From contig NC_088711.1 of assembly GCF_963576615.1 (NCBI RefSeq), forward strand, positions 58,632,248-58,696,247: DNA of 64,000 nucleotides, given 5' to 3'. Shown in pieces: positions 744 to 64,000 of this stretch (position 1 is its first letter; each line of letters opens with the position of its first letter). The notes under the pieces are model-generated. The model was not told the origin of the DNA. It ran no database searches and worked only from the letters and a program-made list of their open reading frames with translations. The position numbers and the translations under genes were made by a program. This DNA is from Watersipora subatra (lineage: Eukaryota > Bryozoa > Gymnolaemata > Cheilostomatida > Watersiporidae).

Positions 744-994
744 GCGCAGATCAAAGCCCTACACAAATACGTACTGCCGTTGTGAGCACGTGGTACAGCT
801 TTCGCTTTGTTGTTTGCTTGATGCAATTGGCCTCCATGTTTTAGTGAAAGCTTTTAATTGGGCAAGCTTAACGTGGTTTAAATTGGTTGGTTAATTGTAA
901 CAGCCGCTCGTTGTGACACATTGCACTGCTTTGCCGAAGGATTGATACATAGAGGCAGCCTTGGTTGTAGTTGCTGAATCTCAAGGCAAGTACA
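744..994 (+). promoter_or_regulatory. Short spacer and likely promoter/5' UTR of the MZB1 homologue
   Basis: This 250-bp gap contains a palindromic CACGTG at 787-792 and an ACGTGG at 871-876. Nine bases after the CGTGG comes GTTGG (886-890), which read on the minus strand is CCAAC-N9-CCACG. That is one base off the ER stress response element CCAAT-N9-CCACG. Two further ACGTG cores lie just upstream (636-640 and 664-668) but may fall in the neighbour's 3' UTR. No TATA box is evident. Regulation by the unfolded protein response is an inference. Confidence 0.3.
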
Positions 995-7859: not shown

Positions 7860-14517
<6,658 letters not shown>

Positions 14518-21200: not shown

Positions 21201-24200
21201 AATGGAGAAAATATCACAAGGCAATCATAGGGCAATAAATTCAAACTTGAGCCTCGTTCCCATATCGATTGCGAGACTCCGGCGGTAACTTGCGCAGCAA
21301 AACGCTTGCAATGCTAGTGTCGGTGGCATCTGTTCACATATTCACATATTCACATATTAAAGATGTAGTTGCGTCAAAATTTAAGTTGATCTTAAAAGAA
21401 AGCATTTTTTTTCTCTATCAGTTGATATGTTGTTTGTTGTGTTACGCGATCGCATTGCCAAGATATTTGAAGATTAAAACCGAAAAAATCTGATCACCGT
21501 AAAAACGCTCAGGCCACAAAAACGTGCCCAGCCTCGCCAAAAATGATGTCACGCGTTTGGCAACCTCTCTCTATCTCTCGTATTCACATCGGCTATTTGC
21601 GATAAAAGTCTAGTCTTACGCGGCTCTATTGGCATATATCTTATTTTGTATTTGCTCGTGTTGGCTAGAATAAAATTTTAAATCCTGTTACAGATGCATT
21701 ATTATGAATGTTTAAAAGGCCTCAAATAACGAAAATTGAAAGTTTGTTCTACTCACTTTCTCCAAATATTGTGTAAACATTTGGGTACCGACTACCAATT
21801 CTACCGGTCTACGGTAATTCTGTCTAGTCACTTTATGTAGAACGCGGTCTTTGCATCAGCACAGTTCTGCAGCTACCCATATAAACGATATACAGCCTCC
21901 CATAAGCCCCGCCCACATTATGTCGCCTATTACCTATTGCCTACGTACTAGTTTCTTACTAGTTTCTTACTACTAGCAAGCCACCTCTTTGAAAAGAATA
22001 TAGACAGGGATAGAGTTTTAAGGATGAGAAGTCTGCTGCAAACTGGATTTGAACTCACATTCTCCAGTTCTGCGGACACCCATATACCATATCCGATTCA
22101 CTACAATATTCTGCAAATCATGTTTTGCATTATCTTCAACAATATTATTTTATTATATAATTTTTACAAGCAAAAATATTTTCATCTCGGCATAAAGCTT
22201 TTATTAAAAATATTCATCAAGTCGTGGCCACTCACATAGTATTAGCTGATACAATAAGACAAATTCATCTACTGCAACAAACTCAAACAAAACATCATCC
22301 AGCACGCATTCAAGTCTTGCTTTCTCCTTTATAGCAGTTTCCACACTGACAAAGCTTCTTCGGCTGGTGGGACGACATAAACATTCTGTAATCAGTAAAA
22401 CAAGTAAATGTAAACAAAGTAGATGCAATAAATATGTCATTCATAGATATGTCATTCTAAAGCGTATCTATTGACAGCTTCCAAATTGGGAGTTAAATAG
22501 ATTGCGAGTGTAATTTTAAAAACGAATAAACATTTAATAAAGGCACAAGTACGCCAAGCCAACGATTCGAAGCTTTGGTTCTGGAAATTAAAGATTTGCA
22601 ATGATCAATCGATTTTACCCACTTCCTACGTGTGAAAATAATTTGTAATCATGACTCTAATTTACCAAAGAAAATTCGAAAAAAATATTATAGCTAGGTA
22701 AAACGGCAGATAAGCTATGAAACGATGATTGGAGATAGCAAAGAATTATCATTTTATTAATTAGTATATGTATTTATGACTATAAAAAAATATTACATTT
22801 ACTAAAGTATAGAAGACTCTAAGTTAATTTACCTCCATTCTGTCTTCTTCTGCAGCAAAACGCTGCTGACGCCTGTCAGCTTTGGCCATAGGCTGTCTAC
22901 TCTAATCTTTTACTAAACGTTGCTCAGATAACTCTGAGTAGCGGTCGCTCGAACTTGAAGCCATTTTAAAACTATGTATAACTTAGTAATTGTTGAAACG
23001 CGTTGAATCAGTAACGATGAGCATGAATTCTCTAGCGATGAGAATCTTCGAGATCACAGACAACGCGTTTTACGAGTGATAACATTTATTACGGTCTATA
23101 TAAAAATTTCGCGATCGTGATTGGCTAACGAAGCGACCTCATATTTATCGCTCGTGGTTTCGTTTCAGAAAACAAGCTAGTGACGTCACGAAATTGGCAC
23201 CCGCTGGAACGTGAGCTTTTTAAAAGAGGGCCTCATTCAAACGCATATATCTCTGGACAGGGTTGGTCTACAAAGACAAAAATGGCATCAAATTATAGCT
23301 GATGTTTTAGCCTTTTATGGGTCCTAATTTCATTTTTGACGCAACTACATCTTTAAGCTGCATTGCTAAACATAATCGCGTAATTAAATAAAATGTTCGC
23401 TCGCCGGGCCGTTTCTGTAATGGTGACCTTCACCTGTACATAGCATTTCGGGAAGGTTTTGTCTGCGATCTTTTGCGAAATTTTAACAGCGTTAAACTAT
23501 TGCGTTGCCCCCGCCGGCAACTACCGGCAATACCCGGCGCGTAGGTTCCTGTTTCACCGCTAATAGCCTGCGGTGCTGTCGTCGGTGCTTTGCGATGTAT
23601 ATGGGAACCAGGCTTTATGCTTCTTGCTATCTTTCAATGGTGTAATTAGTCTATTTACACTAAAGTCAAGTTAGCCTCAATATGTGACCCCAAGCTAGTG
23701 GGAGGCAAGATGCAATTCCTAGCAAGTGGTGACATGGATTTCGTTTTCTCCGTAAAAATTTTATTGCCAAGTTGTATTTGTTTATAGTTGAATAACGAAA
23801 TAACTAATTGGCTGAAATGCTTCAGCAAAAAAGAAGGCTAATTGGAGCAATCCTTGTTATCAAAGTTGGTGATATGAGCTAAACTTCCCAAGTGCAGAAT
23901 GAACATAGGTTTTTTCGTTATTAAGGTGTGAAACTTGTTACTCCGTGGGAGAGAACTGACAAAAGTTCATCAACTGGTTCATTGTTTACAGTTGCTGAAA
24001 GATTGATATACAACTCAAAGCCATATTTTCATTTAAAATTTTGAAATTGGTCATATTTTACATATAAACCATTTATACAAACCATATACCATTTGCCGCT
24101 TCCTAATTCTCTCACGGCACTTGACGGTAAATACCAATTTTTCTCACCCTTACGGGATAAATTTAATAGTTCCCGGCAAAAATATAACCCTGTTAAAAAG

Positions 24201-25752
24201 TGGCTTTAAATAAATATTAACCTCGGTTTAGAATATTCATGGGGATAAATATGTAGGTTGAAAACTTATTCTATTGGATTGGTGAACAGTGTGGACAAAA
24301 CAAAAGTGTACAAGTTATGAGACTGCATAACAGTTACGAGTGGCTGGTTTATAGGAGTTCTGATGTTCTAGTATCAGCCTAGAGTGTGCCAATTTATGCC
24401 ACATGAGTAATTTAACCGTGGTTGTAGTCATCTAGGAAACTCTGGCATTGTGGCAACTTTTGAAAAGTTCATCTGATTGTCAATTTTGTTTTTCTATCAG
24501 ATTGTCTGCATCTTATGGGTTTTCGACAAATCTGCTTCTGTATATCTACAGAAAAATTTGCAACGTGTTCTTTGATGTTCTAGTTCTTTCAGCTTGGTAT
24601 TTATTCGTTCAGCAGTGTTGTGGTATGTGGACCGTCTGCGTATTTTGATATTAGATTACATTTTAAGTGTTGTCACTGATAGACAATCTCTCAGTTGTGT
24701 AGTTGTTACTCCAGTATGTTTTTCTTAGTTTCTATACTATGCATGTTCAACGTCTATTTCCAAGTTCTATGTTTAGGATGGGTCAGCCATGCTGTGGGAC
24801 TTGAATGAAGGCAAGCACTTGTACACACTTGATGCAGGAGAACCTATTAATGCCATGTGCTTCAGTCCTAACAGATACTGGCTCTGTGCTGCTAGTGGTC
24901 CACAAGTGAAGATCTGGGTAAGTGTTTTGGATGTTGTACACAAAGGCAAGATTTGTAGTTATTCCGTATGATCAGAAAATTGCTGTTCATTGTTTTCTGG
25001 AAGGTAAATACTTTTTTCAACCAGCTCCTGTGTTCCCTTGCTGGAAATAGGTTACAAGATCTTGGCAGCCAGCGTTGAGTACATGCAGTCTTGCGTATTC
25101 GCAAAAATGATTCAGGTCAAAAATTAAATGCGTTAATAACAGTCAATACCCTGACTGTTATTGATTCACATTTACATAGGAAAATTTACTTTTGATTTGA
25201 AACATAAATTGGCATTTTGAATTTATTATTGTCATCTTGTCTTTGGAAAACTTTTGTTAGCTATATTTATCACTTACTTTTTTGCTTTTATGTAAATCTG
25301 ATACGTATGGTTTACTTTTTGGCTGCTTGGTTGGATATTGTCATACGGAATGATATAAATTCTGTTACAATGTCTCTAAAAAATATTTTGTGGTTCTGCT
25401 GTGGCTTGCGCAGGCCCACGTTTACGAAACAAGTGTTCAACATTTGTCAATCATCTCCCATGATGACACATTGCATATGAATTAATGAAATAATACCTGC
25501 AGTGCTGAGGGGGCAACAAGTTGTCTGTGCGTATGTATTTCTCATTCGCAAGTTACTACTTTTGTAATCTCCTTATAGGATTTGGAAGGAAAGATGATTG
25601 TGGATGAACTCACTCCTGCTGTGCACACCACCAGCACCAAAGCTATCCAACCAGAATGCCTCTCGCTAGCCTGGTCCGGTGACGGTCAGACTCTCTTTGC
25701 TGGTTATACTGACAAACTAATCCGTGTCTGGCAGGTGTCGATGGCCCGATAG
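18277..25752 (+). CDS. RACK1: RACK1, seven-bladed WD40 ribosomal scaffold
   Basis: Six exons: 18277-18385, 18547-18718, 19525-19672, 19865-20071, 24777-24917 and 25579-25752. Together they give 316 residues (human 317), beginning [20 protein letters not shown] and ending [12 protein letters not shown]. Seven WD repeats are recognisable from GH and WD/WN pairs, including [39 protein letters not shown] and [17 protein letters not shown]1 binds the 40S subunit head near the mRNA exit channel and docks kinases such as PKC. Introns 2 and 5 each carry a box C/D snoRNA about 70-77 nt upstream of the next exon. Intron 4 (4.7 kb) is swollen by transposons. AATAAA at 25823-25828 closes the transcript. 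Confidence 0.97.
19386..19456 (+). ncRNA. SNORD96: SNORD96-like box C/D snoRNA, copy A (RACK1 intron 2)
   Basis: Box C ttGATGA (19399-19405) and box D CTGA (19444-19447) enclose about 38 nt. An outer stem pairs cactcttc (19386-19393) with gaagagtg (19449-19456). The guide actcctgcagt precedes box D. Its fifth base before box D is the C that pairs with the G of ACTGC in invertebrate-type 5.8S rRNA, equivalent to human G75 targeted by SNORD96A. Box D lies 77 nt before exon 3, the usual spacing for intronic box C/D RNAs. Box C begins T instead of purine and the stem is offset from the boxes, so this copy is less canonical than copy B. Confidence 0.65.
20072..21249 (+). other. First part of RACK1 intron 4, no recognised feature
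   Basis: AT-rich sequence with a short inverted aacgtaaaa...ttttacgtt at about 20316-20342. Open frames here lack family or splice support. The segment may contain degraded transposon sequence. Confidence 0.5.
21250..23616. mobile_element. Terminal-inverted-repeat element of unknown family, split by a TTAA-flanked element
   Basis: The left end agcctcgttcccatat and the inverse of the right end agcctggttcccatat match at 15 of 16 bases, followed by GC-richer subterminal repeats around accgacg/ccggcg. About 110 bp of this element lies to the left and 260 bp to the right of an inserted element at 21361-23352. The family is not identified. Confidence 0.55.
21361..23352. mobile_element. TTAA-flanked DNA transposon (Kolobok or piggyBac-like), ~2 kb
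   Basis: The left end AGATGTAGTTGCGTCAAAA and its inverse at the right end (ttttgacgcaactacatct) match over 19 bp. TTAA flanks lie at 21357-21360 and 23353-23356, a duplication typical of piggyBac and Kolobok superfamilies. The minus strand shows exon-like pieces: an ATG near 22963 ([16 protein letters not shown]) with an early in-frame stop, and a frame at 22204-22440 preceded by an acceptor-like site. I cannot assign these to a transposase, so the copy is probably nonautonomous. Confidence 0.6.
23617..24776 (+). other. Last part of RACK1 intron 4, no recognised feature
   Basis: AT-rich intron sequence. Weak box C/D-like matches near 24570-24680 were examined and not accepted. Confidence 0.5.
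25455..25513 (+). ncRNA. SNORD96: SNORD96-like box C/D snoRNA, copy B (RACK1 intron 5)
   Basis: A canonical box C ATGATGA (25460-25466) and box D CTGA (25505-25508) are closed by a terminal stem of ctccc with gggg(g), including one G-U pair. The guide acctgcagt (from 25495) pairs with the ACTGCAGG stretch of 5.8S rRNA; the fifth base before box D selects the G. Box D is 70 nt before exon 6. The interior (acattgcatat, then taatgaaat) is clearly homologous to copy A, so the two arose by duplication within the host gene. Vertebrate RACK1 hosts SNORD96A, whose guide has the same register. Confidence 0.78.
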
Positions 25753-40000: not shown

Positions 40001-42059
40001 AAACATATAAATTAAGACAGCAGATCATTGTCCGTATAAACATTGTACGAGTGCAGCGATTGTTAAAATGTTTTTGTTAGATAGTCAATGTGTGGATCAC
40101 ATATGGAAGAAATCAGCAAGTAGAGGATAACTCCAAGCTTATGGACATGCATATTCATCGACAATTGTCCATCAAGTAGCCTCGTTCAGCGATAAATGTT
40201 TTTTCAAGCACACCTGAAAAAATATTTATCAAGGTGGGATAAATATCACACCGTAATAAATATTGGGATACAATATTTATTAAGGTAGTACATATGGATA
40301 TCATCTTGGTATTAATGTATACCACCGGGTCCGTGTTGATACCAAGGTGATATCAAAGGTACACATATTCCTTACATGTACACCTGTTAAGGTGTACATG
40401 TAAGGAATATGTGTGAAGGAGTGCGAGGAATAAAGTGTGAAGGACTCAATCCTAAATGTGACTTGGTATGACAAAAAATTATTCAGCATGGCCTGACTTG
40501 CAGTTCCAACAAGAGCTTGATATTCTAAAATGAAATCTGACAGACTTCTGGCAGTTTTCTCAAGGTTTTGTTGATTATTTGCTTAGCGCCACACTGGATG
40601 TTTCTAAAAAATTAATGCAACGAGACGAACCACTGCCGACCATTAAAAATACATCTACTCGTAAACAATTAGAAACTATCACGTTTTACCAATGGTAATG
40701 AATTTCACTCGACTTAAAACTGCTTGTTTCCACCAAAAACAAATGATTTTACTAATTAATAACATTCCTTCAATAACACGGTTTATCCATAGAGCGCTCA
40801 CCCCTTAATCCTTATTCTATAGAACATTAAATTTAGGAATACAGGCATATAGATCTATTCCATCTATAGCTAAGGTATTTGATGACAAATGCAACAGGTA
40901 CTTGATGTCACCAGCAGCAGGTGTCAAAGCCACTTGTACTGTATTTTGCAAATTTAGTTATAACTAAGCCACACTGGTAAATCACTACTAATTTCAAATA
41001 ATTATTATAACTTGTTACAAGAAGAATTCCTAACTGGTGTTGCTGCAGTTGTTAAAGGTTGACTTGCAATAAAATTCACATTACAATTATTTGGTATCAA
41101 AAGATTCACCATGTCTTACTCTGTTGCGTTGTAGGTGCCAAATATGTGGAAATGTGATTACAAGCTCCTAAAAGCTCAAAAACAAAAAGCCGCCGTAGAT
41201 TGGAATCTCTTTATTTCGATGACGTAGCCATGAAATTTGGTTCTTGTCACGTATGTTCTCACGCGAATTGGAAGGCCAATAAAAAGCTCAATATAAAACT
41301 TATCGTAGCATTAGTTTATGACAAACACTTCGGGTTTTACCGAAGACCCCGTATCAAATATAGATGCTCGCTACTTTACAGTTTTGTTTCGGCATTATTC
41401 AATCGTCAAGTCGTTCTCTGATCATGTGACCCAATACTTCGCAAATAATTTTTGCAGCACTTTTCGATTATCACAGGTGACCAACAGGCTTGTCATGATT
41501 ATCAGACAACGATATGTACTCCTTCGAGGTAAGGCTAAAAAATAAATGAATTTTTACGGCAAGTTATAAGATATCACTGCTAAAAGTGACAGCATTTACA
41601 AAGCCGATAAAACAGACGCGTAAGAACAATAAACATGGTTTTATTAAATGCGTGAAGTATATTTGTGAAAATACTTCGACGAATAAGGTTGCATGAAAGT
41701 GTAAACAGAAATCATCTCCCACAACTACGTCACATTTGAGCCGTTTTGGAAAGAGAATCCAAACTACGGCGGTCTCGTGTGGCTGCGATTAACTGTTCGT
41801 TTTTGAGCTTTTAAGAGCTTGTAATCACATTACCACATATTTGGCACCTACAACACAACAGAGTAAGACATGGTGAATCTTTTGATACCAAATAACTGTA
41901 ATGTGAATTTTATTGCAAGTCAACCTTTAAGCAAAATTCCACTCCGTATGAATGCGAGCAGAGTACCAGGTTTAATGTTATTCTATTTAAGATCATTACC
42001 AATCTTATCACCCTTTACCCATTACGAGTTTCACATGAAAGTTAAGTTTCTCTTTACTT

Positions 42060-43409: not shown

Positions 43410-46400
43410 TTATTCAGTCTTTTCTCTATCTCTAAATAAATGCTTAGAAATAAACCTTGGCAAACCCAACGGCCAATCATATTCGTGTGGTATCGAACCA
43501 TCCGCCTCAGACTCAAAATAGGTAAACAATGGAAACCACATCTTCCTTCTAGACGTATCATATCTCAAGCGCGCGTTGTTGTCAGCCAGTGTGTGGTAAT
43601 AGAGAAATAACCTACAAATTTAAGGAAATTCTACAATTCAAGCAAGGAAAGACAAGAACTACATTTTGTAAAAGATAAAAAAATATATGTATGATATATA
43701 TATGTACTAGCTGCGCCTCCCGGCGTACCCCAGGTGTTGAAAATCAGCTTACAAACCAAATGAGCTAGTAAGCTTACTAATTCTAAGCTAGTAAGCTAGT
43801 AATTCCAGCAAGCTAGTTAATAGGCGCTAGGCTTCTAATGGTAGTAGGCCATAACGTTTTGTCAGCATTGTTGTCCAGCTATAGCGACATTGTAATAATA
43901 GCTATAGCCAGAATGACAGACAGATGACATACATACTTTGAGAAATATATATATATAAAGATATATAATATATATGTGATATGAGATTATTCGTCTTACA
44001 GACATTGACATCCCTGTTGGTGTGAGGTAGGAAAGCATGACAGGTCAGTTAGTACAAGTATTTCTGCATTCAGGTCTCTAAGGTACACTGACAATAGCAA
44101 ACTATTGCAATGCATTAGTAGTGTAGTAGGCATTTTTTTACATTTAACTTAGTTTTACACTTATATTCATGCTTTCTGTAATTACTCGAAGTATTTATGA
44201 AAGTTTCTGGCTGTGGAACAAATTAAATGAATTGCAGTGAGTGTACATTTAGGGAAATAAGTCCTCCAACATATGGCAGTTCGAACAGATGAAACAGATC
44301 TCACAAACAGACTTTGTGAGCGGAGGTATGACACACATGCGTAAGCAACCAGTGTTGATGTAAACAAGTTGAACTTTCTGATAATTTAGCTTCATCAGCA
44401 ACCAGAACTCTGATTGGACGTAGCATCCTAAACATATCGCGTGGCTTGCCGAGCAAATTTGCCATTTCTACCAAATGCCCTTAGCCATATACCAAAACTA
44501 CATCAACAAGTTCCTCACAAATTAAATATTCTCTGATTACTGAAATTAAACGCGACTGGGCTTGAGATTTGGAAAAGTTAAAATATACATAAGCTAGTAA
44601 AAACCAATTAATAGCTAAAGAGAATCTATGAATACCTCGTAGTTAGATAAAAGGCAATGAAGACATCAATAGAGTAATGCTCATGTCCTGCCATGACGAA
44701 GAATATTCCAAATAGAGCGAGGATCCAGCATAGAGTTTTCACTATAGGATACCTTTTGTCTGAGTCTACAATCAAACACCCTACTCATGTTAGTAGTCTG
44801 AGTCTACAATCAAACACGCTACTCATGTTAGTAGTCTGAGTCTACAATCAAACACACTACTCATGTTAGTAGTCTGAGTCTACAATCAAACACGCTACTC
44901 ATGTTAGTAGTCCGAGTCTACAATCAAACACACTACTCATGTTAGTAGTCCGAGTCTACAATCAAACACACTACTCATGTTAGTAGACTGAGTCTACAAT
45001 CAAACACACTACTCATGTTAGTAGCCTGAGTCTACAATCAAACACACTACTCATGTTAGTACTCTGAGTTTACAATCAAACACCCTACTCATGTTAGTAG
45101 TCTGAGTCTACAATCAAACACTCTACTCATGTTAGTAGTCTGAGTTTACAATCAAACACACTACTCATGTTAGTAGCCTGAGTCTACAATCAAACGCCCT
45201 ACTCATGTTAATAGTCAGAGTCTACAATCAAACACTCTACTCATGTTAGTAGAATGAAATACATCTGTCAAATTCAATAGACTCAACAAAGTGTCTAAAA
45301 ATTAAAAGTTCACATAGAGAGAACATGTGTTCTACAGAAATGACTGGATTAATAAATGAAGCTGTGCCTTAAAAGGACACACAATACCTCAACACTGAAT
45401 CACCTTTGTGGCAACTCTAACGTCTCAAATGTATCTATAGAAACACAGACTGTGTATAATAAAGGACAGTGAATATGCAAGTAGAGGTTTATGACATATA
45501 CATACATTCATCAATAAATAGACTGACGAGGGTGAGGAGAGTTGTGTGCCCACTGAACATATAGTCTCCACAGTAACGCACCCCATTCAATGCCATTCCA
45601 CCACAGCAGACTATGTCCCAAGCTCTCTTTAGTTTAGAGTACAGGTCTGGATCCGACTGCAGAACACCACATCACGCACTGGTAACCTGGGTCCCACTAA
45701 CCCTAACAATAAGGGTGATAAACAAATATTTAAAACTAACACTATTTATATTAAATAAAACTAGTACCATTCTCATTTGCCATGAGAGATCGTCAAGTGT
45801 GTCGATAAAACACAGAGAGTAACTATGTGCACAATTATTTGGGAATGTATATTGCGGCTGACTAGTGTAGATGTTTCCGCATCGGGCAAGTTGGCCGAAT
45901 GTCTCGAGGTTGAATCCTGCACGAAGCAATATTTTTTCCCGGCCTCAAACCTTGGCCTCGGACAGGCAGACGAACATGGCTCTTATTATAGTAAAGATTA
46001 TACAGGATAAGACAATTGTCTAAAGTCAAATGAAACATGATGCTTGTGATGTACAGCTATGGAATTCATGTACACAGTCAGCTACAATGACATTATAACG
46101 TTGCAACTTGTGTAGGAAGAGACCCAGCTTGATCAGTTCTGAAAACTCAGTGAATGATGCAAGATCTAAGGATGACCTTATGACCTTGCAAAATATGATC
46201 AAATGAAGATGACGGGGTAGAATGGTCACTAGCAAATATATTAAAAGAAACAATAGACAAGGACTTCTATATTCTCATTACTCACAGGTAGTGATTTTGA
46301 ACAATGATGTGGTGCGAAGGCAAGTGGTAAAGATATCATCACTGAGCTATGCATAGCCATAAATTTCCAATTTAATTTTCTATCATGTGTTATATGAGTG

Positions 46401-49400
46401 CTAATGATTGCTGATGTTACAAGAGAAGTTCAGATTTGTATCCTACTCACTGCTCCTCCATAAACCAAGTTTATATTAATTGACATTGCTAGGATTTTCA
46501 CAAAATTTTATTACAGTTTAATCTAAACATACAAAGTTAATCTATTTTGATATTTTCTTTTAAAGTTGAAGCATTCGTTTGTTGAAGCAAATACTCTTAT
46601 ATGAGTGTACTGTATTAGTGTACCGTACTCTTATATGAGTGTACTGTATTAGTGTACCGTACTCTTATATGAGTGTACTGTATTAGTGTACCGTACTCTT
46701 ATATGAGTGTACTGTATTAGTGTACCGTACTCTTATATGAGTGTACTGTATTAGTGTACCGTACTCTTATATGAGTGTACTGTATTAGTGTACCGTACTC
46801 TTATATGAGTGTACTGTATTAGTGTACCGTACTCTTATATGAGTGTACTGTATTAGTGTACCGTACTCTTATATGAGTGTACTGTATTAGTGTACCGTAC
46901 TCTTATATGAGTGTACTGTATTAGTGTACCGTACTCTTATATGAGTGTACTGTATTAGTGTACCGTACTCTTATATGAGTGTACTGTATTAGTGTACCGT
47001 ACTCTTATATGAGTGTACTGTATTAGTGTACCGTACTCTTATATGAGTGTACTGTATTAGTGTACCGTACTCTTATATGAGTGTACTGTATTAGTGTACC
47101 GTACTCTTATATGAGTGTACTGTATTAGTGTACCGTACTCTTATATGAGTGTACTGTATTAGTGTACCGTACTCTTATATGAGTGTACTGTATTAGTGTA
47201 CCGTACTCTTATATGAGTGTACTGTATTAGTGTACCGTACTCTTATATGAGTGTACTGTATTAGTGTACCGTACTCTTATATGAGTGTACTGTATTAGTG
47301 TACCGTACTCTTATATGAGTGTACTGTATTAGTGTACCGTACTCTTATATGAGTGTACTGTATTAGTTCAGTCTGTTTCAGAGCCCAAAACTAAGGGGGA
47401 AAATCTAGTGATTGAACAAAGCGTCTAAACAGATGCATTACATTAAATTGCATCAGTAAAGTGAAATGAGGTTTTCATTATTACTTATCCTAGAGACCTA
47501 CAAGTTACAATGTAGGCTCAGTAATATGTAAATTCAGTGGCAGAGTAGATATTAGGAATATGCGATGTAATTTGTTCTAATGTACAATAGAATGTGCTTT
47601 TATTAACTAAATTCATCTAGTTTTTTCCTTATTTTTACATTTTATGTTGTATCTCCACCAACTTTTTTACTTTTACTAAATTGCATTGATTTGAGAAATT
47701 TCAGATGTAGTGTATCGCGAACTACTTGGAATGCCAAAACAATTTGCTCACAATTGATGTTGTATATTGAGAAATTCGTATTTAAAAGTAATCGTAAGTT
47801 GAGGTTTGATTGTAGCAGGAAGCTTCTAAAAATGGATTTGCCTGCTCTACAAAGGTTAAGTGTTTGCTCTGTTTGTGCCCTTGTATTAGTAGAAAACCCA
47901 AGCTTGCTTCTATGATGACAGAATAGAAGTAAGAGAATCAAGGATGACCGATACATTTGCTCGAAAGTATCACTATTTAAAAGTCACAGACAAACTGGAA
48001 CCTTTATATTTAGCTTGAGAACTAGCTTTATGTATTACAACTGTCATCAGTAACTAATAGTATTGATATTAATGACCAGTAGTAACTAGTATTCATCAGC
48101 AGTAGTTAGTAATTGCAGTAACTCATAATTGACTAGCAGTCGCTAGTACTGGTCAGCGGTCACTAGTACTGGTCAGCGGTGGCTAGTACTGGTCAGCAGT
48201 CGCTAGTACTGGTCAGCGGTGGCTATTACTGGTGAGCGGTGGCTAGTACTGGTTAGCAGTAGCTAGTACTGGTCAGCAGTAGCTAGTACTAGTCAGCAGT
48301 AGCTAGTAGTGGTCAGCAGTAGCTAGTACTGGTCAGCAGTAGCTAGTAATGGTCAGCAGTAGCCAGTACTGGTCAGCAGTAGTGAGTACTGGTCAACAGT
48401 AGCTAGTACTGGTCAGCAGTAGGTAGTACTGGTCAGCGGTAGTTAGTACTGGTCAACAGTAGCTAGTACTGGTCAGCGGTAGTTAGTACTGGTCAGCAGT
48501 AGCTAGTAATGGTCAGCAGTAGCTAGTACTGTCAGCAGTAGTTGGTACTGGTCAACAGTAGCTAGTACTGGTCAGCAGTAGCTAGTACTGGTCAGCAGTG
48601 GCTAGTACTGGTCAGCAGTGGCTAGTAGTGGTCAGCAGTAGCTAGTACTGGTCAAAAGTAGTTAGTACTGGTCAACAGTAGCTAGTACTGGTCAGCAGTG
48701 GCTAGTACTAGTCAGCAGTAGCTAGCACTCGCCAACAATTACAAGCAGCTAGAATTACGTAGTCCATTGTTCCTCATACCTAATATTAGTTGAGAACAGG
48801 CAATAGCAATCTCTCCCTAGCAGGCACTACATGTACTAATATTAGTTGAGAACAGGCAATAGCAATCTCTCCCTAGCAGGCACTACATGTACTAATATTA
48901 GTTGAGAACAGGCGATAGCAATCTCTCCCTAGCAGGCACTACATGTACTAATATTAGTTGAGAACAGGCAATAGCAATCTCTCCCTAGCAGGCACTACAT
49001 GTACTAATATTAGTTGAGAACAGGCGATAGCAATCTCTCCCTAGCAGGCACTACATGTACTAATAAAAAAACTTACATAGCGATAACACTGAAAAGTGCG
49101 ACAAGGTACAGAGAGGGATGTGATGAGCATGCAGATTCCTCTCAGCAGAAATAAAGTTCCAACCAATGAGCAGTAGCGTCTTAGTATTATGAACCTGAAC
49201 AAACAAAAATCCGGCGAATGAGCTGTCATGTCTAAATGAGTCAGTTTTAACGCGAAACCACATCATAGAGAGATTTAACTGAATTTACACCAGTCCATAC
49301 TGTTTAAAGCAAATTATATCATGAGACAAGCAACAAAAAATAGTAAAGTAAATTATGTGTATTAAAAAAAATGCTCATATTGCATAACACTGTTCTGTAA

Positions 49401-52400
49401 TGTGAATTGGCAAGATGTTGGTGTCTGATATAAGGTGTAGTGTTTTCTTTCGGGAGGCAGGAATGAAATAGACTCTTTGGCTATTATGCTGCAAGGCTCA
49501 ACTTCAAGATATTCATTTATAAGAACAACTGAATAACAGGTTGTCCATAATGTCTTACATGAAAAAGCAGCAGTTTTATTGGAAATAGGAAACTTCTTAC
49601 AAATAGAAAAGTTCCAACGAATGCAACATAACACTCAACATGGTTTTTCGAATAAAATTTCCTTGCTATTGTAAATAGATAATGGAAATGAATGTAGACC
49701 TTATTTGGTGCAGGTGATCCATTGAGGCACCGAAAATATAACTTAAATATAAAATTTAGCTTGTGATTATACATGTAGATCTATTAAGATTTTAGAATTT
49801 AGCTTGTGATTATACATGTAGATCTATTTAGATTTTAGAATTTAGCTTGTGATTATACATGTAGATCTATTTAGATTTTAGAATTTAGCTTGTGATTATA
49901 CATGTAGATCTATTTAGATTTTAGAATTTAGCTTGTGATTATACATGTAGATCTATTTAGATTTTAGAATTTAGCTTGTGATTATACATGTAGATCTATT
50001 TAGATTTTAGAATTTAGCTTGTGATTATACATGTAGATCTATTAAGATTTTAGAATTTAGCTTGTGATTATACATGTAGATCTATTTAGATTTTAGAATT
50101 TAGCTTGTGATTATACATGTAGATCTATTTAGATTTTAGAATTTAGCTTGTGATTATACATGTAGATCTATTTAGATTTTAGAATTTAGCTTGTGATTAT
50201 ACATATAGATCTATTTAGATTTTAGAATTTAGCTTGTGATTATACATGTAGATCTATTTAGATTTTAGAATTTAGCTTGTGATTATACATGTAGATCTAT
50301 TTAGATTTTAGAATTTAGCTTGTGATTATACATGTAGATCTATTTAGATTTTAGAATTTAGCTTGTGATTATACATGTAGATCTATTTAGATTTTAGAAT
50401 TTAGCTTGTGATTATACATGTAGATCTATTTAGATTTTAGAATTTAGCTTGTGATTATACATGTAGATTTATTTAGATTTTAGAATTTAGCTTGTGATTA
50501 TACATGTAGATCTATTTAGATTTTAGAATTTAGCTTGTGATTATACATATAGATCTATTTAGATTTTAGAATTTAGCTTGTGATTATACATGTAGATCTA
50601 TTTAGATTTTAGAATTTAGCTTGTGATTATACATGTAGATCTATTTAGATTTTAGAATTTAGCTTGTGATTATACATGTAGATCTATTTAGATTTTAGAA
50701 TTTAGCTTGTGATTATACATGTAGATCTATTTAGATTTTAGAATAATGGATGTTGGCTGTTGGTAACAATGGGTTAGCTATTGTAGGCAAATATTGGAAC
50801 TCTATACAACCAAACATCATTGAATCTGAATATAAGAATGTATTCAAACTCAATGCATTCTAATATTTGCTTCATGTGCCTAAATTGTAATATAATTGTA
50901 ATATATTGGAGCAAATATTCCCATAAGAATACAGTATATTTTAATTCTCAATCCAAAGCTTGAAAAACCATGATAAATACTTCACGTAATTATATACATG
51001 TATAGCATTAAAACAAATGTATTATATACAACTATAAAAAACCAAATAAAAAAAACTAAACAAAGATTTTTTTGTTACTTTAAAGATAGAAATGTAGACT
51101 TGGCAATACATGAGGCAGGCAAAAGCTGATTACATGGAGCTGCTTGCTCTTTTATATGATAGAAACTTTTCCGTCACGGATTATAGTCAACTGTACAGCC
51201 AACGTTGACAATGGTTTGCGCAGAAGATGCAGAAGCAATTTCGAGTAGAATGTCTTTCATTGGCAACAAAAATTATAGCAGGATTGAAAACTGCAGACCA
51301 GAAAGTATATCGTGAAGGAGTATTGTAAGAATCCTGTGGCAACAGCAAAGTCTGGTCAAGGCCAAGACGATTGCATAGCCCTTAAAAAAGGCGATTGTCT
51401 AATATTTCGACTCAGTATTTGCACCAAAGACCATTATAGCTATACAACACAATGGTACATACTCACCGGTGCTTGTGGGTTATAGCTATATAACACAATG
51501 GTACATACTCACCAGTGCTGGTGGGTTATAGCTATATATCACAATGGTACATACTCACCAGTGCTTGTGGGTTATAGCTATATAACACAATGGTACATAC
51601 TCACCAGTGCTTGTGGGTTATAGCTATATATCACAATGGTACATACTCACCGGTGCTTGTGGGTGAAGACAACAAAACCAAAGACAGCGAAAAGGGTGAG
51701 AGCGATGTACTCGGCTGCGTGAAAAGCCCACGGAACAAAGGGTAAAATGTCAAGGAACAAGTCTGGCAGGGGAGGATAAGTCTCCATGTCAGGGACCCTC
51801 TCATTGACTATGGTCATGATGACAGCGCACAAGTACATGACAGCGGATGAGTAACACGCAGCAACACACATCTTGAACTTCTGTGGAATGACAGAAGCAT
51901 GAACTTAGCATAACTGTAGAAATACCGAACGTTTCCAAGTGTACATCTTCACTACATACTTCAGCAACAGTAGACTTAGGCCTATAAGGCTATAGTTTTT
52001 AAAAACTGATCAACGAGCTCATGTTATAGTCCAACGTTGACATATCGGGCTAATCCATACTAATATTTGCTTCATAAGACATGACAGTTGTGCAGGTCAA
52101 TCTTGACCTACGAACATATCTACATTCAAGTTGAACAACTATTTGACTTGAAGCAGAGCAGCTTATAACATATCACATCCAAAATTTCTCGAAAATTGCA
52201 GTTATGTAAGTAAGTACACACGTATACAGTTATCCTTCAGATATCTGGATTCTACAAAAGCTCTAATAATATTAAACAGTGTATTCCTTTTTAAGTTATG
52301 AATCTAAAGGAGACCAGTGAAAGTACTAGCAACAATGCAGAAGGAAAAAGGCGATGCTTTTCTCAGAATTAAAACAAACAAAGAATAAACAAACAAGACA

Positions 52401-54848
52401 AGCATTTCTGTGTCAATTCCTTGAAGAATCTCCAACCTTGACTAGAGGTTACGGTGAAGAAGAAGATGTAATTGATGCAAAGAAACATAATTAGTGATGC
52501 GAGAGATGCTGACCGAGATAATTTAAGGTACTAATAAGAAAATTCAATATAAAAGTTGACTGAGTCTAATTTAAACTTCTTACGTATCTCTATTCTGATC
52601 TCTACCTTCATATTGAGGTTATATTGTGTCTCCAAGGCTACACCTTTAGTGAAAAGTCGAAAAGACAATAGAAGCCTTTTTGATCACTTTTCAATTAATA
52701 TACTTGAGTTTCTTGCTTTCAGTTGTTACATAGTAGTATATATGTATAATTATATACATCCCAATACCTGATATTTTTCCTTTAGTTTTTGAAGATGTAA
52801 AACGAATTAAATAAACACAATGCCTTCATAAATTAGAACCCTTGCTTCAGCATACAACTGTCTCGACCTAATTACGAAGCCAATATCAAAAGCTGATAAA
52901 CTTTGTATGTCGAGGTTTGACTGTATGTTGATATAATTCGTTTTTATAAATAATCGTTCATATAAATTAATGTAATTCATATTCTTTTTATTACCTTTAC
53001 ACGTTATTTTTAATTTCTACCTGCATTTTTACTTTTACTTACCAAGTTTTAATGTTTCAAGAGATTTTGTATGTTAAAAACAATTTCTCATGATGAGACA
53101 AATATTTGTTCAGACTTTACATCGCAAATTAAAACATTTGTATGCAGGGGTGTCAGATGTTGAGAGTTGAAATACGGCCAACACTACGGCAAAAACACAG
53201 CTATATCAACTTTATATTGAACTAATAAAGCTTTGTTATATCTCATCTTATTATATACAAACTGCATTGCAGTTTCAAGCAAACTGAGTATTATCCCAAT
53301 GGTACCACCCAGAATAAGTTGACTTCAACGTAACCGTGTACCTCAGGCTTAAGGTTTGTTGAATACCTCCTCCTATTACTTTCTGTATAAGACGAGCTCG
53401 AGTTGAACTTTTCGGTGTTGGAAGATTGAGACGTGACAGATGATTGAAGTTTGATTGGGCAATCTGCATCTACGCGGAAGCGATTTCTTGAGGGGACGAG
53501 TTTGTCAATAGCACCAATTATTCGCTTGATGTCTCCAAGTTTTTCCATGCTCACAGGAGGCCGCCTGTACAAGATGATAGCGCAAGACTATTTCAACACT
53601 AGCAAACATGTCTACCATGAAGTACACAAACCCGTCTGCCTATTAATTTGTTCTAATAATAAATTAGTAAATATAAATAAAAAACCAGTGTGCCCTGAGA
53701 GATTGTCATGTGTAATAAGTATGTGCACAATTATTCTTAGATGTGAAAAGGTGGAGTGGAGCAGTGGTAGTGCGCTTGTCTTCAACTCCGAACACCTGGG
53801 TTCAATTCCCATACTAAGCAATCCTTTTTCCTAATGCCCTTAGCATGACTTCGGACAAACAGCTGGACCCGGCTCTAATTATAGTAAAAATTACATTGAG
53901 AATAGCAAGCGGTATATGAAATTTTATGAGCAAGCTGATACACCAACTCTTAAAACATCAGTGTGCTGGCACTGTAGTGATGATCAAACGAGAAATATTT
54001 GACATAATAGTCACCATTAACTTTCGCTAGCTTGTCACAGTCATAAAACAATTCTGTAAAAAATATCTGGTGTGTTTAAAGATATAACTCACGGTAATGT
54101 TTATTTCCAAAACACAATAACAAATGTACGATGTAACTCAATGCCAAACAATTGCTATCAAATGAAACTATTTAACAAAAGCTTGTTTCTTGGGAGGTTT
54201 TACATGTACGTTTCATTACAAAGCTGACCATTGAAAACTTACACGCAAAAGATCTAAAACAGAAAAAAAATTAAATTAAAACTTGCGAAAGAGCTATGAT
54301 ATCACTTTCACGTTCTGGAAAGTTCTGAAACTTTCTCAAAAACAACATCTGCTAATTATGGCTAACCAGCGTTTCTTGGCTCTAATATCAACTCACGCCG
54401 AGGCAAGGACTTTATTAGTTTAGCCACACTCATGTTTATATCCACATAGCAAGTAGCAAGCACATAGCAAGCAGAGTAGCTAGACCCATGCACCAAGAAG
54501 GAAAATCTGCCACTGACCTGAGGTCATCCTCTGTGAGCCTCACCAAAGTGTATCCATCAATATCATTTCTCAGAAAATAATATTCACACAAACTAAAGCC
54601 TCTGGAATGAAGCCACTTCACGACTGTGTCCGTGCTCCATAACTCAACCTCACTTACAGAGACATAGACTTCCTGTAGAACACGCAACAACACTGATAAT
54701 CAACAAAATCAATTACTCGTTCCTAGTGATTGATGTGTACAAAGATGAAGCGCGTGGTACTGTCGTCTTCTGCTACATTCAAACCTTTACACCTGACCAC
54801 CTCTACCTGGGAAACTTTGGACATGTGGCATAAACATTGAGCAGACAT
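43410..54848 (-). CDS. SAMD8: SAMD8/SMSr, SAM-domain ceramide phosphoethanolamine synthase
   Basis: Minus-strand exons: 54848-54807 (tentative start exon), 54672-54518, 53564-53342, 51880-51651, 49194-49077, 45656-45506, 44765-44636 and 43611-43410, total 416 residues (human 415). The N-terminal SAM domain (STDTVVKWLHSRGF through LGDIKRIIGAI) is followed by a Ser-rich linker and six predicted membrane spans. Sphingomyelin-synthase family motifs are all present: PPLPDLFLDILPFVPWAF, RRYCSLVGTLFLLR, CGDYMFSGHT and HEHYSIDVFIAFYLTTR, supplying the His, His and Asp catalytic residues. SMSr makes ceramide phosphoethanolamine in the ER and restrains ceramide levels. Exon 3 joins correctly only if the GTACAC donor at 53341 is used, restoring the family's LxPE-x-[FW]-K junction. 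Five of the introns are rich in minisatellites, two of them built on splice sites. The start exon rests on phase and an open ATG only. Confidence 0.93.
44759..45252 (-). repeat. 38-bp minisatellite of iterated 3' splice sites, SAMD8
   Basis: Thirteen copies, read on the transcript strand. Each has TACTAAC (a perfect branch-point consensus), about 20 nt of spacer, TTTGATTGTAG and then ACTCAGAC. The copy nearest the exon supplies the functional acceptor, with the exon starting at 44765. The equivalent AG junction recurs every 38 bp, up to 45221. Units differ by a few substitutions. The host intron is only about 740 bp, so the array makes up most of it. Confidence 0.93.
45782..46006 (+). repeat. 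SINE copy 2
   Basis: The head is gagagatcgtcaagtgtg, then atgtgcacaattatt. The B-box-like part is gaggttgaatcctgc (45908-45922), then the tail ggacaggcagacgaacatgg and cttattatagtaaagatt. It shares head and tail with copies 1 and 3. Confidence 0.6.
46593..47367. repeat. 34-bp minisatellite, essentially identical copies
   Basis: Twenty-two full copies plus 27 bp of actcttatatgagtgtactg + tattagtgtaccgt, with no visible differences between copies. It lies in the 3.4-kb SAMD8 intron between 45656 and 49077. Confidence 0.97.
48131..48730. repeat. 20-bp minisatellite, diverged copies
   Basis: About 30 copies of ctagtactggtcagcagtag with frequent single substitutions. It is in the same SAMD8 intron as the 34-bp array. 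Confidence 0.95.
48780..49063. repeat. 56-bp minisatellite next to a SAMD8 donor
   Basis: Five copies of a 56-bp unit beginning ctaatattagttgagaacag, with only an a/g alternation. The array ends 12 bp from the 5' splice site at 49076, but the units do not contain the splice site. Confidence 0.95.
49752..50745. repeat. 43-bp minisatellite in SAMD8 intron
   Basis: About 23 copies of a unit starting gaatttagcttgtgattata, nearly identical, with rare substitutions in gatctattt(a)agat. AT-rich. Confidence 0.97.
51432..51660 (-). repeat. 46-bp minisatellite of iterated 5' splice sites, SAMD8
   Basis: Five units, read on the transcript strand. Each has about 12 nt of exon end (CCCACAAGCACCG) followed by GTGAGTATGTACC. 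The functional junction is 51651/51650, and equivalents occur at 51605, 51559, 51513 and 51467. Three downstream copies carry CACTG and one carries CACCG before the GT. Use of any downstream donor would read into an immediate in-frame TGA. Confidence 0.93.
52838..52935. mobile_element. Small pogo/Tigger-like terminal repeat fragment
   Basis: The segment ends gtatgtcgaggtttgactg followed by TA, a pogo-type terminus. A weak partner (catacaactgtctcgac) lies 80 bp upstream. It is probably a short MITE remnant in the SAMD8 intron. Confidence 0.35.
53696..53892 (+). repeat. SINE copy 3, with tRNA-like head
   Basis: The head is tgagagattgtcatgtg, then gtgcacaattatt. An A-box-like gtggagcagtggtagtgcg (53753-53771) and a B-box ggttcaattcc (53799-53809) give the clearest tRNA derivation of the three copies. 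The tail ends ggctctaattatagtaaaaa. It overlaps the SAMD8 intron between the SAM exon and the next exon. Confidence 0.65.
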
Positions 54849-55123
54849 ATACGAAGTACCATCTTTCCCAAATAATAAGATAGGGCTTATATTAATTTTC
54901 TTCCTAAACATGACATGGGAGATTACTTTCGAGGAACGTTTTATTTTCATAGATTAAGAGATAGCATATGAAGTGCAACTTACGAGATTTCTAAATATAC
55001 AGAAATTAATAAACATGGCCCACATTCACTTAATCTTAGCGTGTTTTTAAAAAAAACGAGTCATGTCAGTCTTCTCAGAAATTTTTTTTCTTATTTTAGG
55101 TTGGTCTGTTCGCCTGTCCTTAA

Positions 55124-55998
55124 AGGTTGACTTGCAACAAAATTCACATTACCGTTATTTGATATGAAAAGATTCACCATGTCTTACTCTGTTGTGTTGT
55201 AGGTGCAAAATATGTGGAAATGTGATTACAAGCTCTTAAAGCTCATAAACGAACAGAAAATCGCAGCCACACGAGACCGTCGTAGTTTGGATTCCCTTTC
55301 CAAAATGGCTCAAATGTGATGTAGTTGTGAGAGATGGTTTCTGTTTACACTTTCTTGCAACCTTATTCGTCGAAATATTTTCACAAATATACTTCACGCA
55401 TTCAATAAAACTATGTCTATTGTTCTTACGCGTCTATTTTATCGTCATTGTAATGCTGTCACTTTTAGCACTGATATCTTATAACTTACCGTAAAAAATC
55501 GTTAAACTTTTTAACCTTAGCTCGAAGGAGTACATATCATTGTCTGATAATCATGACGAGCCTGTTGGTCACCTGTGATAATCGAAAAGTGCTGCAAAAA
55601 TTATTTGCGAAGTATTGGGTCACATGATCAGAGAACGACTTCACGATTGAATAATGCCGAAACAAAACTGTAAAGTAGCGAGCATCTATATTTGATACGG
55701 GGTCTTCGGTAAAACACGAAGTGTTTGTCATAAACTAGTACTACGATAAATTTTATATTGAGCTTTTTATTGGCCTTTCAATCCACATGAGAACATACGT
55801 GACAAGACGATAACCAAATTTTGTGGTTACGTCATCGAAATAAAGATATTCCAATCTACGGCGGCTTTTCGTTTTTGAGCGTTTAAGAGCTTGTAATCAC
55901 ATTTCCACATATTTGGCACTTACAACACAACAGAGTAAGACATGGTGAATCTTTTGATACCAAATAACTGTAATGTGAATTTTGTTGCAAGTCAACCT
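55124..55998 (-). mobile_element. TTAA-flanked MITE with long inverted ends, copy 2
   Basis: The 875-bp inverted-orientation counterpart of 41056-41926, flanked by TTAA (55120-55123 and 55999-56002). The internal frame (SNIDARYFTVLFRHYSIVKS, 55731-55537) differs at few positions from copy 1, showing recent common ancestry. Confidence 0.85.
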
Positions 55999-56728
55999 TT
56001 AAACATTTTAACATCCACATTCTTTTTTTACATGATGTAGTAGTTCCTTCCAAGTGCTCCCTCCACTAGTCCTTTCTTGTAGTCGATCGAGTAACCTTTT
56101 CTTGCACTCATCTTGTTTTGCGATGAAATAACCAAATTATTTCTTTGAACAAGCAATTTCTTAGAAAGGACTTTTTCATGTTATTTTTAATCAACCACTG
56201 ATCAGCTCTACTCTTGGTCGTTGAAAAGTTTCTCATGACGCGCATTTACATAAAATAAAAATTGAGTACTTTATAAAGAATGTACTCTCTTGCACTTCTA
56301 CCGCTTTTAACTCAAACTTATGTTGAAGGTAGGGACTGTATTACAACAATCCTTAAAAATCACACTCTTATTATTGGGGAACCACAACAGTTCTCAACAT
56401 TCAATGCCAAATTTTTCAAAGCAATGCAGTTTTGTAAGTAAACATGTAAGAGGGTTAGTAGAAATTGAAAGGAGAATCGATAACAGCATATATAAGTTAC
56501 AATACAATACTCCAACATATTTATCACTCGCTCGACATCTGAACTTACGCATTGCCCAATCTAAACTTCTGTTTACATGTCTCTGAAATATAGTAACGAC
56601 AAAAACCTTGTTAGTCCAGTATTATTGCTTTTTATATATATAATTATAGTTTACTTACTTATTTTTTGCATAGTTTACATAATACATTTGTTTCAATGCC
56701 ATATATATATTATGGTATATATGCCATT

Positions 56729-60746: not shown

Positions 60747-63700
60747 ACGCATTTGCCGTTTTTGTTATCTGCACTGTGAATTGACTTTATTTCGACGGGA
60801 ATATTAAAGAAGATTGTGGCTAGTATCATATCGGAATGGCGGAGGCCGATGCTGCACGCCCCCCGCCGTTGAGGATAAAAGTTGACACTCCTGGACATTT
60901 GGATTTTGTTAATGCCTCCACGCAGTGGACAGAGTGGTTAAAAAGGTTTCAGCGGTTTAGGAACATTGGTGGCTTAGCAGAACAGTCTAATGCAGTGCAG
61001 ATCGATTCTTTGCTCTATATAATGGGTCCGGAAAGTGAGGATGTATATGCACAGCTGCAATTTACGGGAGATGAAGCGGACAGAACATTTAAAGCAGTAG
61101 TGGATGCCTTCACTGCTTACTTTCAGCCACGCAGAAATGTTCTCAATTACAGGAAGCAGTTTTACAACCGTAAGCAGAGTGCTGATGAGTCGGCTGAAGA
61201 GTACATTCGCAGCGTTCACACTTTGGCAGTTAAGTGTCGATTTGATGCAGGATTGACACAAAATGATATGGTCAAGGACCGACTACTCTCTGGTATGTCT
61301 GATACTTCGCTTAGTTCCGAGCTAAAGCTTGATGAAGACGTAACACTAGATGCTGTTATATCTAAGATGCGCGCTAAGGAGGCAATAGTGAAACAAATGC
61401 AACTCGAAACGAAAGTTGCTGCAGTTAAATTAACCGGTACTGCTAAGAGTAATCAGAAACAAACACGCATGATATGGGACTGCAAATATTGTGGAGGTTC
61501 TCATCCGCCACGTTCATGTCCAGCTTTTGGAAAGAAGTGCAACAAATGCTCCAAAGGTAATCACTTCGAACGTGTGTGTAAGCAGAGCTCAGGCTGCCGA
61601 GGTAACCGCGAATGGTACAGCTAAAAGTGAAGACTAGGATTTCTTCATTCATACACCAAACTTACATGCCGATGCTGTTAGCAATGACACTAAAACCATT
61701 TATGTTGATAGGTTTGATTCTGCTATTATTACTCATGCTTTTAGTATCACTAATGAATGGTTGGAAGATCTTGTTGTGAATGGTCAGGTGTTAAAAGCAA
61801 AAATAGACACTGGTGCTCAGGCAAATGTTATCACATCTAATGAACTTCAACGGGTTGCCCCAAATTCTGTGATTAATCCTAGTCGCACGAGGTTGACTGC
61901 CTACTCGGGACATGTTCTGCCTGTTGTAGGTGTGAGTGAGATGCAGGTATCATACAAGGGACAAAAGCATTCTCTTAGCTTTCACATACTGAAAGGGGAA
62001 CGAACAGCACATACTTTGATTGGATTGCCGTCCATAAAACGACTGGGCCTTCTCAGTGTCTCTGTGGTAGGTTCAGTAAATTCTGATACTGTAGGTAGTA
62101 AAGGTAAGTGTAGGATAGCCGGTCAGTTCCCAGATGTCTTTGAAGGTTTTGGTAAGTTGAACATTACACATAGTATTATAATCAAACCAAATGCAGAGCC
62201 ATATTCTTGCCCGCCAAGGTTGGTACCGCATGCACTCAAAGCCAAACTGAAATCTGAGTTAGAGCGATTGGTGTCATTGGGAATCATTGCTGAATGTAAA
62301 GAACCAAGTGAATGGGTCAATCAAATAGTGCCAGTCCTAAAACCTGATGGATCACTCCGCATATGTCTTGACCCACAACAGCTCAATGCAGTGACTATCA
62401 GAGACAGATATGTTTTACCAACTATCAGTGACATATACGCAAGGTTATCTGGCTCCATAATTTATACTACTTTGGACGCACAATCAGGATTTCACCAAAT
62501 ACCATTTGATGAACAGTCCTCCAAACTAACAACATTCATGACACCTTTTGGTCGCTTTAGGTACCTACGTTTGCCATTTGGTCTCACATCCGCACCGGAG
62601 TTCTTTCATAGGACTATGGTGGACATAGTAGGGGATATACCAGGGGTGGAAGTATACATTGATGATGTATTGATACATGGCACTACAGAAAAAGAGCATG
62701 ATGAGAGACTTAAAGAAGTTCTCACTCGATTCCGAGCAGCTGGTTTAAAATTAAATGCAAAGAAATGTCAGTTTAGGGCTCAAAGTGTGAAATTCTTGGG
62801 TAATATTTTGTCCAAAGATGGTATCCGGCCATCTCCAGACAAAGTTCGAGCAATACAGAACGCTAAGACACCCAGCAATAAGTCAGAAATTCGTTCATTT
62901 CTTGGTTTGGTGACGTACCTGGCTAAGTTTTGTCCAAATTTGTCACAGTGCACAAATCCCTTACGACAATTGGTTAAAGATGGGGTGTATTTTTGTTGGG
63001 AGTCTGCTCAGGAGCAAGCATTTCAAAAGGTGAAAAGTTTGGTCACAAACGCACCAGTATTGGCACTCTATGATCCTAAAGTTGATGTAACTGTGAATGT
63101 AGATGCAAGCTCGCATAGTTTAGGTGCAGTACTCATGCAAAAGGGACAGCCAATAGAATTTGCAGCACAATCGCTAACTTCGACACAATGTTTGTATGCT
63201 CAAGTGGAAAAAGAAATGCTAGCCATTCAGTTCGAGCTTACACGTTTCCATCAGTATGTATATGGGCGAGAAGTGATTGTCGAATCTGATCATCAGCCTT
63301 TAGTTAAAATTAGCAAGAAACCCCTCAGTGACTTAACACCCAGACTTCAACGAATGCGCATGCAAATTCAGCACTACCAATACCAAGTAGTACATGTACC
63401 AGGCAAGCAAATGTTTGTATCAGATTACCTCTCAAGGTCTTGCAAGGCAAAACGCATGAAGTAGACTTGAATTTAGATGATCCTATGCCTCAAATCTGTG
63501 CGCTCAGAGTTCGTGATGCAACTGCTGTTGATGCTTACAAAGAAGCTACTGCTAGTGATGATACATTGAAAATAGTAATGCACTATACCAAGACAGGCTG
63601 GCCAAACCAGAAGCGATTGTGTCATGCATTGGCTAAACCTTACTGGAAATTTCAGAGTGAAATCAGTGAGTGCAATGATTTGCTGTTTTATGGTAGCCGG

Positions 63701-64000
63701 CTTGTGGTCCCTTATGAAAAGCAACAGGAGGTACTTGATCAGCTGCACGCTAGTCATTTGGGTATTACAAAAACGCAGCAGCGTGCAAGAGTAGCTGTGT
63801 TTTGTCCTGGCATGAACCAAAGAATAGAAGACAAGATCATTTCATGTAGCGTATGCAAAGCTCATGAGAAGTCCCAGGTTAGTGCACCTCTCATACCCAG
63901 TGAAATTCCAGATTACCCTTGGCAAATCATAGGCAGTGATCTTTTCCAGTTTGATGGTGGCCACTACTTGCTGAATGTGGATTACTACTCCAAATGGGTA

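Follow-up and report, generated by a model that had tools for sequence, protein, structure and literature searches.

The stretch of DNA that we analysed (the window; 64,000 nucleotides, 36.4% GC) contains three genes that could be modelled, namely SAMD8/SMSr, a PP2A catalytic-subunit gene and RACK1. The protein read from the joined SAMD8 exons matches human SMSr (PDB 8ijr) with E = 4.2e-96; the main match covers query residues 122-386, the SAM domain aligns as a separate match, and Pfam identifies a PAP2_C domain. Intron 2 was set by eye (53341-51881, donor GTACAC, phase 0). The PP2A gene has a best match of E = 4.9e-144, with 264 of 284 residues (93.0%) identical to the human protein, and RACK1 has 251 of 314 (79.9%). 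Coordinates of the genes, and of the tandem arrays that adjoin their splice sites, are collected in Table 1.Table 1. Genes, exons and boundary arrays in the window (positions count from its first letter).
Feature	Position	Strand	Remarks
SAMD8/SMSr coding region	43413..54648	minus	7 recovered exons, start codon unplaced
SAMD8 exon upstream of the array-bearing intron	45506..45656	minus	homology and spliced alignment
SAMD8 exon downstream of the array	44636..44765	minus	130 nt, SDKRYPIVKTLCW...FYLTTR; homology and spliced alignment
38-bp x 13 array	44759..45252	minus (transcript strand)	per unit: TACTAAC, TTTGATTGTAG, then ACTCAGA(C) from the exon start
Unit U13, authentic 3' splice site	44759..44796	minus	exon start 44765
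46-bp x 5 array, donor of another SAMD8 exon	51434..51664	minus	first unit holds the authentic donor; exon end 51651
56-bp x 5 array, next SAMD8 intron	48780..49065	minus	starts 11 bp inside the intron; donor GTAAGT at 49076 outside the array
23-bp x 13 array, PP2A catalytic-subunit gene	13624..13924	minus	first unit at intron base +1 (13924)
RACK1 gene	18277-25743	plus	5 introns

Other elements lie around these genes. Two copies of an element of about 880 bp (41052-41930 and 55120-56002), which we take to be of the MITE or foldback type, have terminal inverted repeats of 121-138 bp that are 96% complementary; the two lie mostly in opposite orientation and share 88-96% identity where they match. 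A 28-base pattern taken from an inverted-repeat element had 0 matches in viral contigs and 0 in prokaryote genomes, and the SMSr protein had none in viral contigs, neither collection including animal genomes. Near the window end (60824-64000, plus strand) are a gag-like frame and a frame with protease-like, reverse transcriptase and RNase H parts, from a retrotransposon, possibly of the Ty3 type, the gag and protease matches being below Pfam's cut-off. Frames at 971-6877 (plus strand) resemble, by eye, a canopy (CNPY) family gene; the two tried against Pfam gave no match.

The SAMD8 intron of main interest ends in a tandem array. When the two flanking exons are joined (45656-45506 and 44765-44636) they read ...FIDEYSDKRYPIVKTLCW, and the alignment to human SMSr is gapless at the junction; a spliced-alignment script likewise places the intron over the array at 45505-44766 (740 nt, phase 1). 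Both the gene name and the exon start given by the first-pass annotation are borne out by these alignments. Tandem Repeats Finder reports 38 bp x 13.0 copies with 94% matches at 44758-45252, and our unit table agrees with it on the thirteen tandem copies that had been described. The units (U1 to U13, the last adjoining the exon) run head-to-tail and in register, 13 x 38 = 494 bp. On the transcript strand each consists of TACTAAC ... TTTGATTGTAG followed across the boundary by ACTCAGA(C), that is, an intron end plus 7-8 exon-derived bases; the consensus is C TACTAAC ATGAGTAG N GTGTTTGATTGTAG and then ACTCAGA. In our judgement, chance does not produce a run of 13 units that are 94% identical.

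The units are less uniform than the claim that every one is perfect would have it. TACTAAC is present in 12 of 13 (U2 has TATTAAC) and the acceptor AG in 11 of 13: U3 and U5 read TGTAA, with AA for AG, and their next AG is 6 nt further on. Box and AG are both intact in 10 of 13 units (U1, U4 and U6-U13), so the twelve upstream decoys are indeed in register, as proposed, but only 9 of them are fully intact acceptors. The identification of the last unit as the true exon start holds, since U13 alone preserves the reading frame and the junction is fixed by protein homology. Outside the array TACTAAC occurs 11 times in the window, 7 of them on the array strand; a perfect copy is absent from the branch region of the 14 other introns checked, in which the best agreement was 5 of 7 bases.

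Only 18 of the 494 array positions differ from the consensus, and 7 of these differences fall at position 17, which is hypervariable (T in 6 units, G in 3, A in 2, C in 2). Units farther from the exon have more differences (Spearman -0.66, nominal p = 0.014, 13 units), also when position 17 is excluded (-0.65, p = 0.017). Such a gradient would be seen if the array were fed, or purged, at its exon end. Among the 11 decoy changes outside position 17, 7 hit one of the 8 positions that derive from the exon (nominal P = 0.003; changes shared between units are not independent). The splice signals of the decoys are not preferentially eroded, and the excess of changes at exon positions is no more than suggestive of selection on those signals, given the shared changes.

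All 12 upstream units would be entered in the frame Y-S-x-Y-stop, the stop being the TAA inside the branch-point box, within five codons. Because the frame runs into TAC TAA in every one of them, each would give an immediate stop; this count treats the lost AG of U3 and U5 as used, 10 of 12 having kept it. Decoy use would never lengthen the SAMD8 protein, which would stop shortly past FIDE and lose the part beyond. The frame shift that had been put forward as the consequence of choosing a decoy is a secondary effect, the main one being the in-frame TAA in 12 of 12 upstream units. The first-pass annotation also suggested distal-to-proximal scanning; since most units carry their own branch-point box, picking a branch point likely picks its acceptor as well.

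Splice-site strength was considered as the selector and rejected. With a crude position matrix from the window (13 donors or 14 acceptors), the authentic acceptor scores 4.8 and decoys up to 6.9, so the authentic site does not stand above them, and the five donors of the 46-bp SAMD8 array score equal. The exception is the PP2A array, where all 12 decoy donors score below the authentic one.

Two further arrays in the window carry donors. The 46-bp unit in SAMD8 consists of the last exon bases, CCCAC(A/C)AGCAC(C/T)G, followed by the donor, GTGAGTATGT. Its exon piece encodes HKHR, and because this is common to human SMSr, the gene probably seeded the array here, not the reverse. Any of the four later donors, if used, would give HKHR and then a stop (4/4). 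In the PP2A array (13624-13921 by Tandem Repeats Finder), the authentic GTGAGT lies in the first unit and is followed by 10 GTTAGT and 2 GTTGGT decoys, all 12 of which would lead to a premature stop if used. At all three sites (acceptor, SAMD8 donor and PP2A), the exon-adjoining unit is the authentic site and the sole unit that keeps the frame. One SAMD8 intron also contains a 34-bp x 22.8 array with 100% matches (46592-47367), which either expanded very recently or was produced by the assembly, and a 20-bp x 29.8 array (48135-48729); TACTAAC occurs four times in this intron and is visible in some of the 20-bp units. The five introns of RACK1 contain no tandem array of at least four copies.

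In total, the window has 10 arrays with at least 4 copies and a period of at least 10 bp, 7 of them in introns of the three modelled genes. We placed each of these at random within its own intron, with an overlap of 15 bp into the exon permitted; the test excludes the 12-bp array at 1945-2030, whose nearest exon, presumed by eye, is some 230 bp away, and the arrays at 33037 and 57280, which are outside the modelled genes. Four of the 7 lie within 12 bp of a splice site, against 0.34 expected (nominal P = 4.6e-5). Without the SAMD8 acceptor array the figures are 3 of 6 vs. 0.14 within 12 bp (nominal P = 2e-4) and 2 of 6 vs. 0.09 within 3 bp (nominal P = 0.003), all P values being nominal for a test framed post hoc on three genes. 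With 10 qualifying arrays in a repeat-rich region some overlap with splice sites could arise by chance, but the size of the excess, and its persistence without the array that drew attention to it, make a chance association very unlikely. If the excess is genome-wide, it would bear on the origin of minisatellites and on how introns are gained through tandem duplication.

The first-pass annotation knew of no described precedent for the acceptor array, but minisatellites that span exon-intron boundaries have been published as amphioxus “mirages” (PMC3087553, PMC3902484), and there are human CBS cases. We consider it likely, from the sequence, that the SAMD8 acceptor array is a mostly neutral mirage of which the exon-nearest copy is used, the decoys being largely silent. 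It has tandem units of minisatellite size (38 bp x 13, 94% matches); the units combine exon and intron sequence with a splice signal (AG in 11 of 13); and the authentic junction lies in the exon-side unit, the only one that keeps the frame. The array would go back to a tandem duplication of 38 bp of the gene itself, a stretch that began at the branch-point box, crossed the intron-exon junction and reached 7-8 nt into the exon; the array would then have expanded and been homogenised. Units would accumulate on the intron side only, since the reading frame is kept by the copy next to the exon.

Under the mirage reading most SAMD8 transcripts would be spliced to 44765, presumably selected by nearness to the downstream donor across the 130-nt exon (exon definition) together with exonic enhancers, and decoy products with their immediate stop would be degraded. 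In the available parts of a study of human data, long introns go with a preference for the nearest sites across the exon; of near-equal 3' splice sites at least 20 nt apart, the upstream one is preferred under intron definition, and exon definition only significantly reduces this preference (PMC9225289). Since competing human 3' sites favour the upstream one, nine decoys intact to the branch-point box are not obviously harmless. The matrix scores of the acceptors and the uneroded decoy signals likewise weigh against the mirage reading. The acceptor array is a harder case than the donor arrays, and some leakage would not be surprising. SAMD8 thus offers a natural experiment on duplicated splice sites, in which the correct donor is transcribed first and the correct acceptor last: a first-come rule would get the donor array right and the acceptor array wrong, whereas exon definition would get both right.

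If instead the decoys compete effectively, the array could act as a rheostat, a form of the control by nonproductive splicing suggested in the first-pass annotation, with immediate-stop products degraded and SAMD8 output dropping as copy number rises, whether selected or not. We regard this as unlikely, although several observations point toward it: nine intact decoys carry a perfect TACTAAC, unmatched in the 14 other introns (best 5/7); all 12 upstream units lead to a stop; the intron-derived signals of the decoys look less changed than their exon-derived positions, a weak sign; and in the human CBS boundary VNTR, according to the parts of the report available, more repeats go with lower activity (PMC5188458). 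Against it, among the 12 decoys two lack the AG and a third departs from the branch-point consensus, similar arrays at the second SAMD8 site and in PP2A look genome-general and not specific to SAMD8, and the mirage authors, in the portions accessible, report or infer that regular splicing is undisturbed in amphioxus (PMC3087553, PMC3902484). A broader proposal, that minisatellites are preferentially born at splice junctions here and that the SAMD8 array is a copy-number-dependent poison switch, is more doubtful still. Were it true, each extra unit would add a branch point and an acceptor that ends translation at once, and array length would set the amount of SAMD8 protein, varying between individuals or even cells.

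RNA structure could also single out U13 if neighbouring units paired and hid the inner acceptors, leaving U13 open because the adjoining exon is unique sequence. The U13 acceptor is indeed predicted to be the most accessible of the 11 AG-intact units in 4 of 4 window settings; however, it still comes out on top in 58 of 100 runs with the downstream exon shuffled, so its top rank is largely an edge effect. The two units that lack the AG are roughly as accessible as U13, or more accessible. In the PP2A array the authentic donor has the lowest accessibility of all 13, and in the SAMD8 donor array the authentic copy is outdone by the fifth. With the donor arrays contradicting it, we rejected structure as the selector and think it a highly improbable explanation. 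Tandem arrays are often miscounted, and an assembly or sequencing artefact, or a wrong copy number, has to be weighed as well; the mirage in BflGb6 haplotype 1 of amphioxus is described, in the text available, as aberrantly assembled (PMC3087553). The SAMD8 acceptor units, on the other hand, differ from one another in a patterned way, and similarly placed arrays occur at other splice sites in the window; an artefact would not create register with three different splice sites, and it is the least probable of these explanations.

Several known systems resemble the SAMD8 acceptor array in part. NAGNAG acceptors lie 3 nt apart and share one common branch point. As in these and other tandem acceptors, several acceptors compete at one exon; in the SAMD8 array, however, they are 38 nt apart and have separate branch-point boxes, which sets it outside the NAGNAG class. 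Human CBS provides two cases. Its 31-bp VNTR at the exon 13/intron 13 boundary (PMC5188458) is likewise a short tandem repeat on an exon-intron boundary, variable in copy number, but unlike SAMD8 it is non-coding sequence in a human gene. In 844ins68 the intron 7/exon 8 junction is duplicated, and the distal copy is strongly favoured and gives normal mRNA (PMC2630376); this is one duplication, SAMD8 an array. Variable repeats at exon-intron boundaries in human segmental duplications may form new introns, according to the accessible part of PMC2812944. We rejected as a parallel the intronic minisatellites of C. elegans with splicing-regulatory motifs, for which the available text describes no boundary duplication (PMC4039745), and the accessible portion of PMC8724738 contains nothing on the choice among natural arrays. 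In those parts of the open-licence literature that we could consult, we met no array in which 13 acceptors each come with a branch-point box.

The closest relatives are the amphioxus mirages, described, in the parts of the two papers available, from Adh, the globins BflGb6 and BflGb9, TnC and PGBD5 (PMC3087553, PMC3902484). Unit sizes there are 10-72 bp in Adh3, 150-160 bp in BflGb6 and 60 and 108 bp in PGBD5 (PMC3087553, PMC3902484). The acceptor mirage of BflGb6 comprises the 3' end of the intron and the 5' part of exon 2, with 6 and 3 units in two haplotypes, and intron gain by tandem duplication has been proposed for the amphioxus globins (both from the accessible text of PMC3087553). The 13 units in SAMD8 come from one haplotype. 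If the host of the present window is not a cephalochordate, mirages would extend beyond that group, the name being one that we met only for amphioxus in the open-licence literature; RACK1, at 79.9% identity to the human protein, looks low for a cephalochordate. SAMD8 has a donor and an acceptor array in one gene, and the PGBD5 repeats, as far as the available text goes, are also found at 5' and 3' splice sites. As in amphioxus, tandem minisatellite-like units lie over exon-intron boundaries, at acceptors as well as donors, and many carry splice signals; unlike the amphioxus mirages, the SAMD8 acceptor array has 13 short units, 12 of them with a perfect TACTAAC.
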